A stretch of DNA of 34,028 nt, taken from positions 1 to 34,028 of the forward strand of contig CALXFG010000022.1 in the NCBI GenBank assembly GCA_944387505.1, read 5' to 3'. A program made the translations under genes and the position numbers. Shown piece by piece: positions 5,402 to 31,455 of this stretch. This DNA is from an uncultured Clostridia bacterium. Lineage in GTDB: Bacteria; Bacillota; Clostridia; TANB77; CAG-508. Numbering within the stretch: the first letter of the stretch is position 1; the number at the start of each line of letters is the position of its first letter. The notes beneath the pieces are model-generated. The model saw only the letters and a list, made by a program, of their open reading frames with translations, was not told the origin of the DNA and did no database searches.

Positions 5402-8400
5402 TTATTCTACGCTTTTTAAACTTCCTATCATATCAATTTTCTTTAATGCAAAATAGGTCACAATATTAACAATAATAGAAAATACAAGTGTAATAGCTGT
5501 TGCATAAAGATAACTAATTGGATGTATCACTTTTTCAAATCGCAAAATATTAATTTCACAAGTTCCTAAAATATAGAAATTCAAGAAATATCCTGCCACC
5601 AATCCTAATACAATTCCAATAATCGTTAAAAGAATGGTTTCTCTTGTTACATAATCATATACTTCTCTATCGTAAAATCCTAATACCTTTATAGTCGCTA
5701 ACTCCCTAATTCTTTCACCTATATTAATATTAGATAAATTATATAATACAACAAATGCCAATAATCCTGCTGATACAATTAAAACAATGACAACATAATT
5801 TAGTGAGCTCATGGTATCATCTAAAGTTTTCATAGTTGTTGTTGTTAGAGTAACTGTTTGAACTTCATTTTGTGCTACCATTTCTTGCATGACGGTTTCT
5901 TCCTGTTCTTCATTCAAATTATTATCTTGTACCAACAATACATTTGTACTATATGTTTCGCCAAATACTTGTTGATATAATGCTTTTGACATATATACAT
6001 AATGACTAATATAATTTTCTGTTATTCCCACTACTTTTATTTCTTTTTCTATATCATCAGCAGTTGTCACAGTTATGGTGTCTCCTACGTTTGCATTAAT
6101 TAATTCTGCTAATTTATCTGTTATAATAATTCCCTCTTCTGATAATGTAAATGGTTCCTTTGTTTTCACATCTCTTAATTTTATTACTTTATCAATTTCT
6201 TGATTATCACTTGGAATAACAATTTGGACTGTTTCGCTATTATCACCTTTTTCAGCTGTTCCAGATTCCATATAGGTTTCTACTACTTCTTGTATATTTT
6301 CCTTCTGTTTTAGATTTTCTATATATGTATTTCTTTGTTCTTCTGTCAAAGCTGTTTTTAAACTGACTAACATATCATAATGAAATATATCTTCATACTG
6401 ATTTGGTAAAATAGATGATATAGAATCTTTTAATCCAAATCCTGCTAATATCAAAGAAGTACACCCCATAATACCAATAATGGTCATCAAAAATCTTTTC
6501 TTATATCTAAAAATATTTCTAACTGTTACTTTATGTGAAAATTTTAGTCGTTTCCAAATAAAACCTACTCTTTCTAATAGTACTCTTTTTCCGTATTTAG
6601 GTGCTTTTGGTCTTAATAATGTTGCTGGTGTTTCTTTGACTTCTTTTAAGATGGTATACAAGGTTGCTCCTACAATACAAATATAGATTAATCCTAATCC
6701 CATTGAAGAATATTGATGGTTAAATGATACAATAAATTCTGGTAATGTATACATCATTGAATACATATCCCATATAATTCTAGGTAATAGTTGGAATCCA
6801 ATATTCATTCCAATAACGCCACCAATAATACAAGCTAAACTAGAATAAATTAAATATTTTAGCATAATATGAAATTTATTATATCCTAATGCTTTCAATG
6901 TTCCAATTTCTTGTCTTTCTTCTTCTACCATTCTTGTCATAGAAGTTAATGAAACTAAAGCTGCTATTGCAAAAAATACAATAGGAAATACAATACTTAA
7001 ATTTTCTATACTTTCTGTATCTTGGATATAACTACTATATCCTGCATTTTGTTGTCTATCTAATATATACCATTCCGCTTTTTCTATTTCTGATACTTTT
7101 TCTCTTGCATCAATTAATTTTCCTTCTGCTTCTTGTATCTTGGTATTAAATTCCGCTCTTTTTGTTTCTAATTCTGCTTCTGCATCTTGAATTTCTTGTT
7201 TTGAAGCTTCTAATTCTTTTCTAGCATTCGCAATTTGTGTATACGTCTTATTTTTTGTTTGTTGTAAACTTGATTCTTGACTTTGAATTTGATTTCTTGC
7301 ACTAGCAATTTGTGCTTCTGCATTTTGTAATTCCTGTCTTCCACTAGCAATTTGATTGTCAATCTCTGTCATTCCTGCTTCAACAGATTGCTTATTGGTT
7401 TCATACACTTGTCTTGTTGCTTGTAATTTTGCAATTTCTTGATTGATTGTTGCTATTTCTTCTTCCGTTTCTGCTGTTTCTAATTTGGCTTGTTTTTCAG
7501 CAATTGAATTATCTGTAATTTTAATCGCATTATTAATGTTGTCTAATGTACTTTGTAAACCGGCTTTTTGATTTTCGGCCTCTTCAAACCCTTTTTCTGC
7601 TTCGATTTTTTCATTGTTTAATCGAAGTGCATTTTTTGCTACTTCTGTTTTTGCTGATTCTATTTTTGCCTCTGCATTTTTAAACTGTTGATTTGCTGTA
7701 CGTTCATTATTGTTAATTTCTGCTTCTCCAGATTCTATTTTTGCTTTTCCCTCATTAATTTCATTTTCTGCATCCTGAAGTTGTGTCTCTCCATTTTGTT
7801 TTTCCGTATTAAACTCTTCTTCTGCTTTTGCAATTTCTGCATTTGCTTCATTAATTAATTCTTGATATCTGGCATTTTCTCTTTCTTCTTTTATTTGTTC
7901 AATTTTATCTTTCGTTTCTTCTACATAATCTTCATATTTATGACTTCCCGTTTGATATTTATCACGATTTTGTAATGTAATATAGATTTCTGTATATACG
8001 TCTGAATTCACATTTTCTTTATTGACATAGATATAGTAATTAATAACACCTGTTCCTAATTTGGTGTTTCCTCTTTCTCTTGATATATATAAAGGACTTT
8101 CTACCACACCTACAATTTTTAGTGTTTTATTTTTTAAATATTCTGTTTCTTCTCCATCTGTTGTTCCTGTACTTTCTGTTTCTTCAGGTTCTATGTCAAT
8201 ATAATCTCCTATCTTTTTTCCTGTTCCCTCTAGGAAACTTTTTTCTACCACACATTCATCTATATTTTCAGGCATATTTCCTTCTACCAAAACAGGTTGA
8301 TTGACATCATCTACACATAAGATTTTTGAAACAATTTCTTTATCATTTGTTTGAATTAATCCATCTCTACTATATGTACCATATACATTTTCAACATTTT

Positions 8401-17290: not shown

Positions 17291-17601
17291 TGGTGGGCAG
17301 GGAAGGATTCGAACCTTCGTACTCAAATGAGAACAGATTTCTTACTACTATAGTTTTCACTACCATAATTATATTATGTTTGTAGTCTGGACTTTCTCTT
17401 TATCTTTTTCAAGATACCAGGTATAAAGTCTCTACACTCGGAAATTTCTTTCCTAGCTCGGGATTGTCATCAGCCTAACTGTTAAGAGTTCCCCGAATTA
17501 GCCCGGTGTTCATCATATAATCACTTATATGAGCTGCAAGTTTAGGTTTTGATTAACCAAAGACCACAGTCTGCCGCCTTTAGCCACTCGGCCACCTACC
17601 C
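17291..17601 (-). tRNA. tRNA-Tyr (GUA) interrupted by a group I intron
   Basis: Exon 1 is 17601-17566 (36 nt), exon 2 is 17340-17291 (50 nt, CCA encoded). Joined they give an 86-nt class II tRNA: acceptor GGGTAGG/CCTGCCC (one G-U), anticodon stem GCAGA/TCTGT, loop CTGTAAA with anticodon GTA, a long variable arm (TCTCATTTGAGTAC), and T arm GAAGG TTCGAAT CCTTC. The 225-nt insertion falls between U35 and A36 of the anticodon, so no functional tyrosine tRNA can be made without splicing. Shared promoter at 17723-17751 with the CAU tRNA upstream; terminator at 17266-17289. Confidence 0.93.
17341..17565 (-). ncRNA. Group I self-splicing intron in the tRNA-Tyr anticodon
   Basis: The 225-nt intron follows exon base U and ends in G, as group I introns require. 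By hand (intron numbering from 17565) P1 is exon CUGU with IGS GCAG at 29-32 (U-G at the splice site). P2 is CATATAA/TTATATG. P3 is ACCGGG (59-64) with CCTGGT (135-140). P4 is TTCGGG with CCCGAG. P6 is GGAAA/TTTCC. P7 is GACTTT/AAAGTC. P8 is TATCTT/AAGATA with a GAAA loop, and P9 is ACTAC/GTAGT. Classical core elements lie at 17500-17488 (P-like, AATTCGGGGAAC), 17465-17456 (Q-like, AATCCCGAGC), 17437-17425 (R-like) and 17396-17381 (S-like, AAAGTCCAGACTACA). It has no room for a homing endonuclease. Confidence 0.92.
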
Positions 17602-17615
17602 ATATTAATTTATAA

Positions 17616-17692
17616 TGGTGCTCCCTCAAGGATTCGAACCTTGGACCCACCGGTTATGAGCCGGTTGCTCTGACCAACTGAGCTAAGGGAGC
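17616..17692 (-). tRNA. tRNA with CAU anticodon (Met, or Ile2)
   Basis: A 77-nt cloverleaf with encoded CCA: acceptor GCTCCCT/AGGGAGC, D arm TAGCTCAGTTGGTCAGAGC, anticodon stem ACCGG/CCGGT with loop CTCATAA, T arm CAAGG TTCGAAT CCTTG. The first acceptor pair is matched, so it is not the initiator. Elongator Met and TilS-modified Ile2 cannot be told apart by eye. It precedes tRNA-Tyr by 14 nt on the same transcript. Confidence 0.95.
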
Positions 17693-17722: not shown

Positions 17723-17751
17723 AGTATAAACTATTTTTATCTAGTTGTCAA
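17723..17751 (-). promoter_or_regulatory. strong sigma-A promoter of the two-tRNA operon
   Basis: Consensus TTGACA (17751-17746), 17-nt spacer, TATACT (17728-17723), about 31 nt before the CAU tRNA. Confidence 0.85.
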
Positions 17752-28419: not shown

Positions 28420-29136
28420 ATGTTAAATTTTGTCATTTGTGATGATAATACAAACATTTTAGATAGATTAGAAAAACTATTAGAAACTATATTTACAAAA
28501 AATAATCTTGAAGGTCAAGTATCTTTCAAATTTAATAACTTTGAAGATTTATTGGCTTGTTTTGACAATGAAAATCAAATTGATGTTTTACTTTTAGATA
28601 TTAATTTAAAATCTCAGAAAACTGGTTTAGATTTAGCTGAAGAAATTAGAAAGAAAAATAAAGATGTTTATCTTATATTTACAACCGGTCATCTAGAATA
28701 TGCTATGATGGCTTATAAATATAAAACATTTGATTATTTAGCTAAGCCTATTACTTATGAAAGATTAGAAGATACTGTAAAAAGGCTTTTTGATGATGTT
28801 TATGGATTACCAAAGAAATATATTAAAATTGATAATAAGAATACACTTGTAGATGAAACGCAAATTCAATATATTAAAAGAGATGGTATGAAATTAAATT
28901 TTCATACCTCTTCTCGTGATTATGAGTCTTATAGTTCTTTTAACAAAATTCAAGATAAGTTACCTGACAATTTTGTAAGATGTCACAAATCTTATATTGT
29001 TAATTTAAACAATATCAAAAATGTGGATCCTGTTGCTCTAACCGTATATTTTAATAATGATACATATTGTAGCATTGGACCCAAGTATAAAAAGGAATTT
29101 ATGGAGGTTATAAAAAATCATGGAATTATTGAATAG
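28420..29136 (+). CDS. AgrA-like response regulator (REC-LytTR)
   Basis: Receiver domain at 1-120 with acidic pair D8/D9, phosphoacceptor Asp at 60 (LLLDINL), T88/T89 and Lys 109 (LAKP); LytTR DNA-binding domain at about 130-235 (YIKRDGMKLNFHT, FVRCHKSYIVNLNNI). The 238 residues match the AgrA/VirR/ComE type that controls peptide-sensing loci. GAGGGGG precedes the ATG. The kinase gene starts inside the last 17 bases of this gene, so the pair is translationally coupled. The likely targets are the agrBD promoter and its own. Confidence 0.93.
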   Translation: MLNFVICDDNTNILDRLEKLLETIFTKNNLEGQVSFKFNNFEDLLACFDNENQIDVLLLDINLKSQKTGLDLAEEIRKKNKDVYLIFTTGHLEYAMMAYKYKTFDYLAKPITYERLEDTVKRLFDDVYGLPKKYIKIDNKNTLVDETQIQYIKRDGMKLNFHTSSRDYESYSSFNKIQDKLPDNFVRCHKSYIVNLNNIKNVDPVALTVYFNNDTYCSIGPKYKKEFMEVIKNHGIIE

Positions 29137-30466
29137 TATTTGGAATGCGTTAACTACGCCTAATGAAGGTTTAATAAATATATTGTCTGTACCTTTTACG
29201 ATGATTGAAGTATATTTATCTACGCTTCTTTTTACTTCTTTATTAAACATTTCAACACAAAAGTATCAAAGACTAATTTATGTTTTACTAATTAGTTTAA
29301 TTGGTGTATTAGCTACATTTGTTATTCCTAGTCCTTTTAATTTAGTTATAAACTATTTATTAATGTTTATATTAATACCCATATTCTTCAAAACTAATTT
29401 ATTAAAAACATTTCTTTCTGTTCTTATTTCTTCTCTATCTTTTGCCTTAATAGGAATGTTTATCATGAATCCATATCTTGATTTATTTAATATTTCTTAT
29501 AATGATTCATTAACAATACCAATCTATAGAATAATCTATGTATTTATCCAATATTTTATCATTTTTCTTATTTATTTGGTTTTCAATGAAAACAAACTAT
29601 CTATTTTTATTTTTAATGATATAGATAAGAAACAAAAGAAAATTATTTACGCTAATTTATGTTTTGGAATATTTACAATTTTAACACAAGCATTAATAAC
29701 TGTTTATTACATAGATAATCTTCCTTTAATAATAACCTTTTTAAGTTTTCTATCTATGTTAGCATATTTTACAATTAGTATTTCTAGTTTAAGTAAAGTC
29801 ATGAAATTAGCTTCTACCACACAGAAATTGCAAAATGCAGAAGAATACAATAAAACATTAAGCATCTTACATGATAGCGTTAGAGGTTTTAAACATGATT
29901 TTGATAATATTGTTACAACTATTGGCGGATATGTCAAAACAAATGATATGGAAGGATTGAAAAAATATTATGTGCAACTGGAAGATGATTGTCAGAAAGT
30001 AAACAACTTATATGTTCTAAATCCTAAACTAATTAATAATCCTGGCGTATATAGTTTATTAACAACGAAATATCATGAAGCTGAAGAAAAAGGTATAAAA
30101 GTAAATATGTCACTTTTACTTGATTTAAATAAATTAAATATGAAAATATATGAATTCACTAGAATTTTAGGTATACTTTTAGATAATGCTATAGATGCAA
30201 GTAATGAATGTGAAGAAAAGATAATAAATATCATCCTTAGAGACGATGTTAAAAACCATAGGCAACTAATAACTATTGAAAATACATATAATGATAAAAA
30301 TGTTGACACTGAAAAAATATTTAATAAAGGATTTACTGGAAAAGAAAATCATACTGGATTAGGTTTATGGGAAGTGCGAAAAATTTTGAGTAAAAGTAAA
30401 AATTTAGATTTATATACAACAAAAAACGAAAAATATTTTTCTCAACAAATTGAAATATATTATTAA
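29120..30466 (+). CDS. AgrC-like sensor histidine kinase (GHKL)
   Basis: The 448-residue protein has about six hydrophobic segments within residues 20-225, as in AgrC sensors. The phosphorylated His is H259 in LHDSVRGFKHDFDNIV, followed by a dimerisation helix, an N box LLDNAIDAS (N356) and a G box TGLGLWEVRKIL (413-416). This is the HATPase_c_5 form found in AgrC. It should bind the processed AgrD peptide outside and phosphorylate the LytTR regulator. GGAGG lies before the ATG at 29120 inside the upstream gene. The kinase follows the regulator, whereas in Staphylococcus agrC precedes agrA. Confidence 0.92.
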   Translation: MELLNSIWNALTTPNEGLINILSVPFTMIEVYLSTLLFTSLLNISTQKYQRLIYVLLISLIGVLATFVIPSPFNLVINYLLMFILIPIFFKTNLLKTFLSVLISSLSFALIGMFIMNPYLDLFNISYNDSLTIPIYRIIYVFIQYFIIFLIYLVFNENKLSIFIFNDIDKKQKKIIYANLCFGIFTILTQALITVYYIDNLPLIITFLSFLSMLAYFTISISSLSKVMKLASTTQKLQNAEEYNKTLSILHDSVRGFKHDFDNIVTTIGGYVKTNDMEGLKKYYVQLEDDCQKVNNLYVLNPKLINNPGVYSLLTTKYHEAEEKGIKVNMSLLLDLNKLNMKIYEFTRILGILLDNAIDASNECEEKIINIILRDDVKNHRQLITIENTYNDKNVDTEKIFNKGFTGKENHTGLGLWEVRKILSKSKNLDLYTTKNEKYFSQQIEIYY

Positions 30467-30470
30467 AATT

Positions 30471-30509
30471 AAAATAGATATGAATGTATTTGTTCATATC
30501 TATTTTTTG
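30471..30509 (+). terminator. terminator of the regulator-kinase operon
   Basis: A 14-bp stem AAAATAGATATGAA (30471-30484) with TTCATATCTATTTT (30493-30506) and an 8-nt loop, running into TTTTTTG, five bases after the kinase stop. Confidence 0.8.
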
Positions 30510-30521
30510 TAAAATAATAAA

Positions 30522-30546
30522 AGAAAAAACAGCTTTCAAAAGCTGT
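30522..30546 (-). terminator. terminator of agrBD
   Basis: ACAGCTT/AAGCTGT stem (30546-30529 on the minus strand, loop TTGA) followed by TTTTTTC from 30528. It faces the other operon's terminator 13 nt away. Confidence 0.65.
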
Positions 30547-30563
30547 CTTGTATTGGATTGTAA

Positions 30564-30626
30564 ATATATAACTTTTTAAGTTATATATGGGTTGGCAAAA
30601 ATAATGTTTCGTCCTATTTTTGCCAA
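30564..30626 (-). other. two hairpins in the 3' region of agrD
   Basis: Directly after the agrD stop: a 12-bp stem TTGGCAAAAATA (30592-30603) with 30615-30626, 11-nt loop, then an 11-bp stem ATATATAACTT (30564-30574) with 30578-30588. Neither has a T run on the minus strand, so they look like 3'-UTR structures (stability or RNA function) rather than terminators. Confidence 0.5.
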
Positions 30627-30630
30627 GTCA

Positions 30631-30750
30631 TTAATCTTTTTTTATCATACTTTCTGGCATTTTAGGTTGATGTAGTACCCACATAAAAAAGCAAGCTGTG
30701 TTTGTAGCTTTAGCATATTTTTCTGCTACTTTAGATAAAAATTTGAACAT
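30631..30750 (-). CDS. agrD: AgrD-like cyclic lactone autoinducer precursor
   Basis: A 39-residue precursor of a thiolactone signalling peptide. The N-terminal amphipathic helix (MFKFLSKVAEKYAKATNTA) anchors to the membrane, the ring Cys is C20 (CFFMW), and the tail HQPKMPESMIKKD has the charged, Pro-containing form of AgrD leaders after the ring. The ring closes at a residue a few positions beyond the Cys; which one cannot be read from sequence (C20-W24 would give the usual five-member ring). RBS AAGGGGGAA lies eight bases before the ATG. The agrB gene ends 61 nt upstream on the same strand. Confidence 0.88.
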   Translation of the reverse strand: MFKFLSKVAEKYAKATNTACFFMWVLHQPKMPESMIKKD

Positions 30751-30811
30751 AATAGATTCCCCCTTATTATATATTTTTAAAAACACACCGGTATATGTTT
30801 TTTAAACTTTT

Positions 30812-31429
30812 TTAAACTGAAGCATCGCCATACACTTCATATCCATATTTATTTTTTGTTAATCTATATGCCAATTTTGTAATTGTTAATGTTTGTAAAA
30901 TATTGCCAAATAGTAGTATATTAGAAATCACATTATCTTGAATCAACAAAGCAGCCATAAGTCCTATTGAATATGCAATATATGCTATGATTTGTTTCTT
31001 TTTTCTATCTTTTTTAGATAATATTGGAACATTTTCTGTATCTGCTGGAGCATAAAGTTTTATCATAAACATTCCGAATATCCAACTAATTCCTATTAAA
31101 ATATATTTTGTTATATCATCCAATATAACATGTTGTGAAAGAAGTACATTTCCACAATAGAAGGTGGTTGTCCCTATTATACAACCTAAATGTGTTTTCA
31201 AATGAAATCCCCCAGATGCTCCTCTATATGGTGTTAATACAATAAACATAAATAATACTTCTTTTAACATTCCCAGAATATATGCGATTATAAATAGTAA
31301 GAAAATTTTTGGTATTTCACCTACTATATTTTGTAATCCATAATTGATTACTTCTGCTCTCTCGTCATCTATTTCTGGCATTTCTTTTCTGATTCTATTA
31401 GTCAAGAATGTGCAGATTGTATCTATCAT
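30812..31429 (-). CDS. agrB: AgrB-like peptide-processing membrane protease
   Basis: Cleaves the AgrD C-terminus and forms the thiolactone. The 205-residue membrane protein has four or more hydrophobic segments and the catalytic pair H76 and C83 in PYRGASGGFHLKTHLGC, spaced seven apart as in Staphylococcus AgrB. NYGLQNIVGEIPKIF and YAPADTENVP are further family landmarks. I use ATG 31429, since AGAGG lies eight bases upstream, rather than GTG 31438. Transcription runs toward the regulator-kinase operon, so the two halves converge. Confidence 0.9.
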   Translation of the reverse strand: MIDTICTFLTNRIRKEMPEIDDERAEVINYGLQNIVGEIPKIFLLFIIAYILGMLKEVLFMFIVLTPYRGASGGFHLKTHLGCIIGTTTFYCGNVLLSQHVILDDITKYILIGISWIFGMFMIKLYAPADTENVPILSKKDRKKKQIIAYIAYSIGLMAALLIQDNVISNILLFGNILQTLTITKLAYRLTKNKYGYEVYGDASV

Positions 31430-31455
31430 TTTCTTCACCTCTTCTTGCTAATTTG

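Follow-up and report, generated by a model that had tools for sequence, protein, structure and literature searches.

The tRNA-Tyr(GUA) gene of an uncultured Clostridia bacterium is interrupted in its anticodon by a 225-nt insert, which very probably is a compact, ORF-less, self-splicing group I ribozyme between positions 35 and 36 that is nearly neutral to its host and has been gained and lost repeatedly. Within the window, the 34,028-nt stretch of DNA analyzed here, the split gene occupies 17601–17291 of the minus strand, with the insert between U35 and A36. Readable from the sequences themselves are the gene, its junctions, the core fold and its covariation, a P10 pairing matched to the host tRNA, and a patchy distribution among relatives.

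The split tRNA-Tyr gene and its surroundings

All three parts of the gene lie on the minus strand. Exon 1 (17566–17601, 36 nt) ends in CUGU (C32 U33 G34 U35), the intron (17341–17565, 225 nt) begins after U35 and ends with the omega-G at 17341, and exon 2 (17291–17340, 50 nt) begins with A36 and includes a long variable arm and an encoded CCA. The joined exons form an 86-nt class II cloverleaf with a GUA anticodon, called tRNA-Tyr(gta) by ARAGORN, and with introns allowed the same program finds the gene de novo as c[17291,17601] with a 225-nt intron. Both results uphold the tRNA identity and the U35/A36 split position given in a preliminary description of this DNA, which had also proposed the fold of the joined exons as a check. 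The intron is preceded by U and its last letter is G, and ARAGORN’s own split of the window gene agrees; in relatives’ introns a U and a G at the ends are a requirement of the splitting script and are not independent evidence. As the preliminary description anticipated of annotation programs in general, the split gene is missing from the output of default ARAGORN and of the Rfam tRNA model, which call only the adjoining tRNA-Met. Genomes of this kind therefore seem to be without tRNA-Tyr.

The adjoining tRNA-Met(CAU) gene (17616–17692, minus strand; default ARAGORN and Rfam tRNA model) lies directly upstream, and upstream of it is a promoter-like TTGACA-17-TATACT sequence (17723–17751, minus strand) with 11 of 12 consensus matches. 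Promoter-like sites in the region number two, against a shuffle mean of 1.8, which is no excess over shuffles, and no terminator-like site was found in the tRNA-Met/tRNA-Tyr region. The Met-Tyr pair is present in 17 of 22 loci (L031–L052). Because a promoter-like site lies upstream of tRNA-Met and the pair recurs in relatives, the two tRNAs are probably cotranscribed. Elsewhere in the window, at 28420–31438, the open reading frames read as LytTR-type response regulator-, histidine kinase-, and AgrB-like genes, possibly an agr quorum-sensing locus.

The group I core and its covariation

Judged by its predicted structure, the insert is a group I intron. The Rfam Intron_gpI model (RF00028), which had been suggested as a check, matches 17569–17374 with 35.4 bits and an E-value of 1.8e-7 (481 nt searched); the match stands at the locus but is below the Rfam gathering score of 50, is absent from the window scan at gathering level, and goes unreported in a whole-genome search at E 0.1. 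This last miss is taken as a loss in the tool’s loose first pass, since the same model scores the locus in the 481-nt search. Because the score falls under the cut-off and the genome-wide search misses the locus, the fold was tested on relatives.

Across 28 tRNA-Tyr genes of relatives (28 of 31; left out are L053, partly masked, L160, which is L047’s contig, and L195, which carries an ORF), 98.8% of cells are paired in a P1–P9 fold with a P3/P7 pseudoknot, a percentage favored by the fold having been hand-drawn from the window sequence. Two-sided changes occur at 30 of 68 pairs; controls with slid partners give 3–10 and shuffles average 11.4, none of 500 reaching 30. All helices are on the minus strand. 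The P2 hairpin (17513–17532), closed by a GUGA tetraloop, has two-sided changes at 7 of its 8 pairs. In the 28-gene alignment P3 (17507–17502 with 17421–17416; 17416–17507 overall) encloses P4 (17497–17492 with 17462–17457), P5 and P6, and P9 (17344–17386) comprises two hairpins, P9a and P9b, the second with a GAAA loop. P7 (17432–17425 with 17395–17389; 17389–17432 overall) forms the pseudoknot with P3 and is paired and invariant in 28 of 28 genes, and the P8 hairpin (17415–17402) sits between its strands. P1 and P7 do not vary in these genes and so contribute no covariation. The window intron thus has P3, P4, P6, P7, P8, the pseudoknot, and the covariation of a group I core; its assignment to this class in the preliminary description is borne out by the fold in relatives, with the below-cut-off RF00028 match in its favor, and P1–P4 and P6–P9 can be drawn as it claimed, together with P5 and P10.

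A core pattern derived from this and related introns has a single occurrence in the window and none in 100 shuffles, and the folding energy of the intron is better than that of 200 of 200 shuffles (z -2.9). A plain free-energy fold does not draw the full core and places a rival long-range helix instead; such rival helices are common for group I introns in plain energy folds. A joint alignment of Tyr, Thr, Asn, Lys, and Leu introns (39 of 40 selected; L084 was left out, its motif not being found, as were introns not chosen) has 94.4% of cells paired and two-sided changes at 22 of 42 pairs, where slid controls give 6–10 and shuffles average 15.9; for the number of further pair types, 105 of 500 shuffles do as well as this alignment. 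Only 63% of upper P5 cells are paired, and 21 of the 39 introns fail to form one of the P8 pairs, partly because these helices differ between host tRNAs. The loops of P2 and P9b are of the GNRA type, and core letters are shared with tRNA-Leu introns. The tRNA-Leu introns belong to subgroup IC3.

The position in the anticodon loop would also suit an intron removed by proteins, as archaeal or eukaryotic tRNA introns are. Against this stand the size of the intron and its conserved ribozyme core, and we know of no splicing machinery of this kind in bacteria, which together make protein splicing extremely improbable. A BHB-type intron was rejected as a candidate on size and core. No ORF of at least 100 aa is listed in 17341–17565, 225 nt being too short for an endonuclease ORF, and the homing endonuclease that marks a self-mobile intron is absent from the window intron.

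Predicted splice-site guides and probable dependence on splicing

The predicted 5’ splice site is set by an internal guide, GCAG (17534–17537, minus strand), that forms P1 with the exon sequence CUGU (17566–17569), leaving a U.G pair at the site. This assignment of P1 is drawn from sequence; its pairs are present in 28 of 28 aligned Tyr genes and never vary. The UU beside the guide (17538–17539, minus strand) pairs as P10 with the AA that opens exon 2 (17339–17340), so that the window holds the splice-site features of a group I intron: U.G at the 5’ site, a terminal G, and a P10 UU facing AA. All 51 distinct Tyr introns and all 28 Asn introns have GCAG in their first 100 nt. Over the same span, 34 of 38 Thr introns match UGU by 3 bp and the other 4 by 4 bp. 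A four-letter word can arise by chance and is weak evidence alone, and introns that share descent do not count as independent cases. The P10 letters, the two that precede the guide, fit the Tyr exon in 45 of 51 Tyr introns and the Asn exon in only 3 of 51, and in Asn introns they fit their own exon in 28 of 28 cases and the Tyr exon in 0 of 28. The P10 rule as coded in the script does not hold for six of the 51 Tyr introns, in some of which a different GCAG may have been picked up. This host-matched P10 is the strongest sign of splicing at the predicted junctions.

From these features we infer transcription, the splicing chemistry, and the dependence of all Tyr codons on the intron. The pre-tRNA would be transcribed, probably together with tRNA-Met, and the intron would fold into P1–P9, with the guide GCAG on the exon CUGU setting the 5’ splice site and the adjacent UU pairing with the first AA of exon 2. 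A guanosine held in P7 would attack after U35, the freed U35 would attack after the terminal G, and the exons would join into a normal tRNA-Tyr(GUA). The intron would persist as a near-neutral selfish RNA, gained and lost repeatedly.

According to the accessible part of one source, the fungal tyrosyl-tRNA synthetase CYT-18 acts as a group I splicing factor (PMC3984707). The host’s own TyrRS, looked at for a CYT-18-like splicing role, is a 411-aa open frame. A separate observation concerns tyrS in the same genus, where a single additional base at a fixed position interrupts several genes. An in-frame CGG lies exactly at the break in 13 of 18 split tyrS genes examined, 11 at site 1 (L400, L401, L406, L407, L544–L548, L550, and L551) and 2 at site 2 (L402 and L549); two of these 13 have a further break downstream, and the other 5 of the 18 have another break or are unread there. 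CGG occurs in 0 of 9468 window codons and in 0 of 70 rpoB genes, and no CCG-anticodon tRNA-Arg is found among the host’s named tRNAs. This pattern suggests +1 frameshifting where a CGG codon goes unread; the accessible part of PMC8629427 deals with CGG as a rare and unassigned codon in low-GC Firmicutes.

The preliminary description raised the possibility that this is the only tRNA-Tyr gene. In the 1.86 Mb assembly (65 contigs, 93.9% complete) a whole-gene search lists one tRNA-Tyr match, and 30 tRNA-model matches include 28 named tRNAs, none of them Tyr, and 2 at contig ends without a name. One copy is thus seen, within the limits of a 94%-complete assembly. Among the matches listed in 23 intron-bearing genomes (of 94; the host’s own included and one partly masked), there is no second uninterrupted tRNA-Tyr. 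Two contigs of G031 (C42 and C56; L054 and L078) both break off within a tRNA-Tyr intron, pointing to two copies of the interrupted gene in G031.

A decayed intron that breaks the gene, with tRNA-Tyr supplied by another gene missing from the draft assembly, is the reading to weigh here. The assembly is incomplete, and Ala, Asn, and Ser tRNAs are also missing among its 28 named tRNAs; G055 may have a second copy, since one of its contigs begins within a tRNA 3’ end that shares 27 identical nt with tRNA-Tyr, and G030 and G037 have 31-nt matches to the tRNA-Tyr 3’ end, neither of which ARAGORN calls as tRNA-Tyr. However, the catalytic-core pairs are kept (as P7 illustrates in every aligned gene), the exons are intact, P10 matches the exon, and the intron-bearing genomes list no uninterrupted copy, so a broken gene is very unlikely. 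With the assembly 94% complete, the matches limited to those listed, and the G055 contig start to consider, it is likely rather than certain that tyrosine decoding depends on the ribozyme.

Distribution, gain, and loss

Among the matches listed, 16 of 57 same-genus relatives carry the intron in full, and at least 24 of the 57 have adjacent exons with no intron (e.g., L058 and L060). G015 also has exons without an intron, with a contig start inside exon 1. Since the whole-genome RF00028 search is empty, a separate model, R1, was built from introns of the host order and some Clostridia and Bacilli contigs. Of 238 genomes sampled from the host order, 79 have R1 matches, 118 in all, located in tRNA-Tyr (44, plus 1 partial), tRNA-Thr(UGU) (38), and tRNA-Asn(GUU) (26, being 24 and 2 assigned by hand); UCA tRNAs (2), Leu (1), and Lys (1) are minor hosts, and 5 matches have no tRNA assignment. 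A recent unique insertion was ruled out by the presence of the intron in same-genus relatives and in the 79 genomes of the order.

With the same model, 5 of 291 genomes match in a draw from the class, these being the host’s own and members of its order, and 5 of 398 match in a draw from the phylum, the own genome included; the other four phylum matches lie in a CAU tRNA (1), an Arg tRNA (1), and sites without tRNA assignment (2). By this model, then, the introns appear rare outside the order, with distant introns under-counted because of the set of introns behind R1 and the stricter filters of the large draws. A core-pattern scan of the genome contig collection finds at least 117 loci; 109 of the 117 listed lie in tRNA genes, mostly tRNA-Leu(UAA), CAU tRNAs, and tRNA-Arg(UCU), and 8 have no tRNA assignment. 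Eight tRNA-Tyr cases among the genome-contig matches listed come from records titled Clostridia, Clostridium, or Bacilli. Some ARAGORN isotypes in intron splits, such as His and Ser, are probably wrong splits.

Plasmid records have no match to the intron, and phage records have 6 partial matches covering 18–22% of the query. At least 120 stretches of viral contigs contain the intron core, none of those listed being assigned to tRNA-Tyr, and a viral scan for a tRNA-Tyr-type 3’ junction finds one stretch, in a CUA tRNA. The 120 viral stretches listed are in tRNA-Leu(UAA) (72), in other tRNAs (23, some of unsure isotype), and in no tRNA (25). In the accessible text of PMC3984707, phage introns known by 2014 are said to sit only in protein genes. 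The CUA (amber) tRNA, at 7423–7707 of a 217-kb viral contig (L540), is split by a 197-nt group I intron. In genome G088, UCA-anticodon tRNAs (L075:397–1088 and L076:941–1619) are interrupted by group I introns (620 and 583 nt) with ORFs that apparently read TGA as a sense codon, the L075 ORF matching PF11645. A phage origin of these two loci is a guess, made because of the tRNA cluster and the recoding.

Mapped on a 70-genome rpoB tree, in which 52 genomes have a scored state (18 without a clear tRNA-Tyr state, G015 among them, are uncounted, and the rpoB rows of G000 and G004, 410 and 628 aa, are partial), the Tyr intron requires at least 13 changes, against a shuffled mean of 16.1, with 35 of 500 shuffles as low. 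Very close pairs differ, G055 having the intron and G004 not, and G056 having it and G053 not.

These pairs bear on the proposal that the intron is a regulatory device, in which the rate of splicing limits mature tRNA-Tyr, and in some genomes also tRNA-Asn and tRNA-Thr, and so tunes translation. The rate of group I splicing depends on GTP and Mg2+, and 25 of the 79 intron-bearing genomes of the order combine a Tyr intron with one in tRNA-Thr or tRNA-Asn (in a further genome the Tyr intron is partial), 6 of the 25 having all three. Nevertheless, that very close relatives differ in the intron fits neutrality better than an essential switch, and a regulatory role is therefore considered unlikely.

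Distances between introns are correlated with rpoB distances (r 0.65, a value that none of 2000 permutations reached), which speaks against wholesale transfer and for much vertical descent; ribozyme constraint could also keep introns alike. G067, from another family, has an intron 94.5% identical to that of the window and an RpoB 80.5% identical over 329 aa, and the introns of G035 and G050 are 93% and 95% identical while their exons are only 79% identical. These comparisons are best matched by a good deal of vertical descent, many losses, and some transfer. The intron-only tree is poorly resolved, with 3 of 19 inner branches starred. The flanks of two sister pairs give no clean test of co-conversion, downstream flanks being largely unrelated in both. 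Upstream of tRNA-Tyr the flank matches for ~200 nt in one pair with near-identical rpoB and for 900 nt in the other (L532–L535), and integration or rearrangement may take place at the tRNA-Tyr 3’ end.

Mobility and relation to known tRNA introns

An intron at the same tRNA-Tyr site, between the same exon ends (ACUGU and AAAUCUG), occurs in a Bacilli metagenome-assembled genome (L195:48–733). It is 602 nt long and carries an ORF matching PF11645 PDDEXK_5 (6.2e-17), unlike the ORF-less window intron, and is expected to be the mobile form. An anticodon-specific intron endonuclease has reportedly been found for tRNA-fMet. The tRNA-Thr(UGU) and tRNA-Asn(GUU) introns of the order have a core that can be aligned with that of the Tyr intron but differ in host, and the P10 letters of the Asn introns suit the Asn exon instead of the Tyr exon.

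It is conceivable that reverse splicing, with GCA pairing to the UGU of anticodon loops, and not an endonuclease moves the intron between tRNA genes. Exon 1 of all three main hosts ends in UGU, the introns carry GCA, and the measured tRNA-Tyr introns of the order, at 198–250 nt, are too short for an endonuclease ORF. The PD-(D/E)XK endonuclease ORF of L195 and the correlation with rpoB count against this route, and since an endonuclease-bearing form exists at the tRNA-Tyr site, ordinary homing followed by ORF loss suffices; reverse splicing is thus the less probable route, though a tentative candidate. An order-wide active radiation, in which ORF-less introns recognize UGU, retool a GCA/GCAG guide and P10 for each host, and jump among Tyr, Asn, and Thr by reverse splicing, is likewise doubtful. 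If it were true, the decoding of up to three amino acids would be ribozyme-dependent in some cells.

The window intron resembles the group I introns of bacterial tRNA-Leu(UAA), tRNA-fMet, tRNA-Ile(CAU), and tRNA-Arg, which are also small, sit in the anticodon loop after a U, and share its core motifs; introns in tRNA-Leu, CAU tRNAs, tRNA-Arg, and tRNA-Tyr are all picked up by a single core pattern. Unlike the cyanobacterial and proteobacterial introns, it resides in tRNA-Tyr, splits the gene at 35/36, and belongs to Clostridia. In the accessible portions of the literature, a 2014 review limits bacterial tRNA group I introns to cyanobacteria and alpha- and beta-proteobacteria (PMC4033280), the fMet and Ile2 cases come from the authors of tRNAscan-SE 2.0 (PMC8450103), and a cyanobacterial survey claims Arg, Gly, and Lys hosts (PMC5733544); those portions of the three papers do not name tRNA-Tyr, tRNA-Thr(UGU), or tRNA-Asn as bacterial group I hosts, and the accessible open-licence literature yielded no group I intron in a bacterial tRNA-Tyr, Firmicutes included. 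The splicing mechanism would be that of the known bacterial tRNA group I introns, and the host genes and lineage look new. These introns would extend the bacterial set to Tyr, Thr(UGU), and Asn hosts and to a lineage in which about a third of the genomes sampled carry them. Close relatives with and without the intron, and guides matched to different exons, make its spread, loss, and retargeting directly testable.
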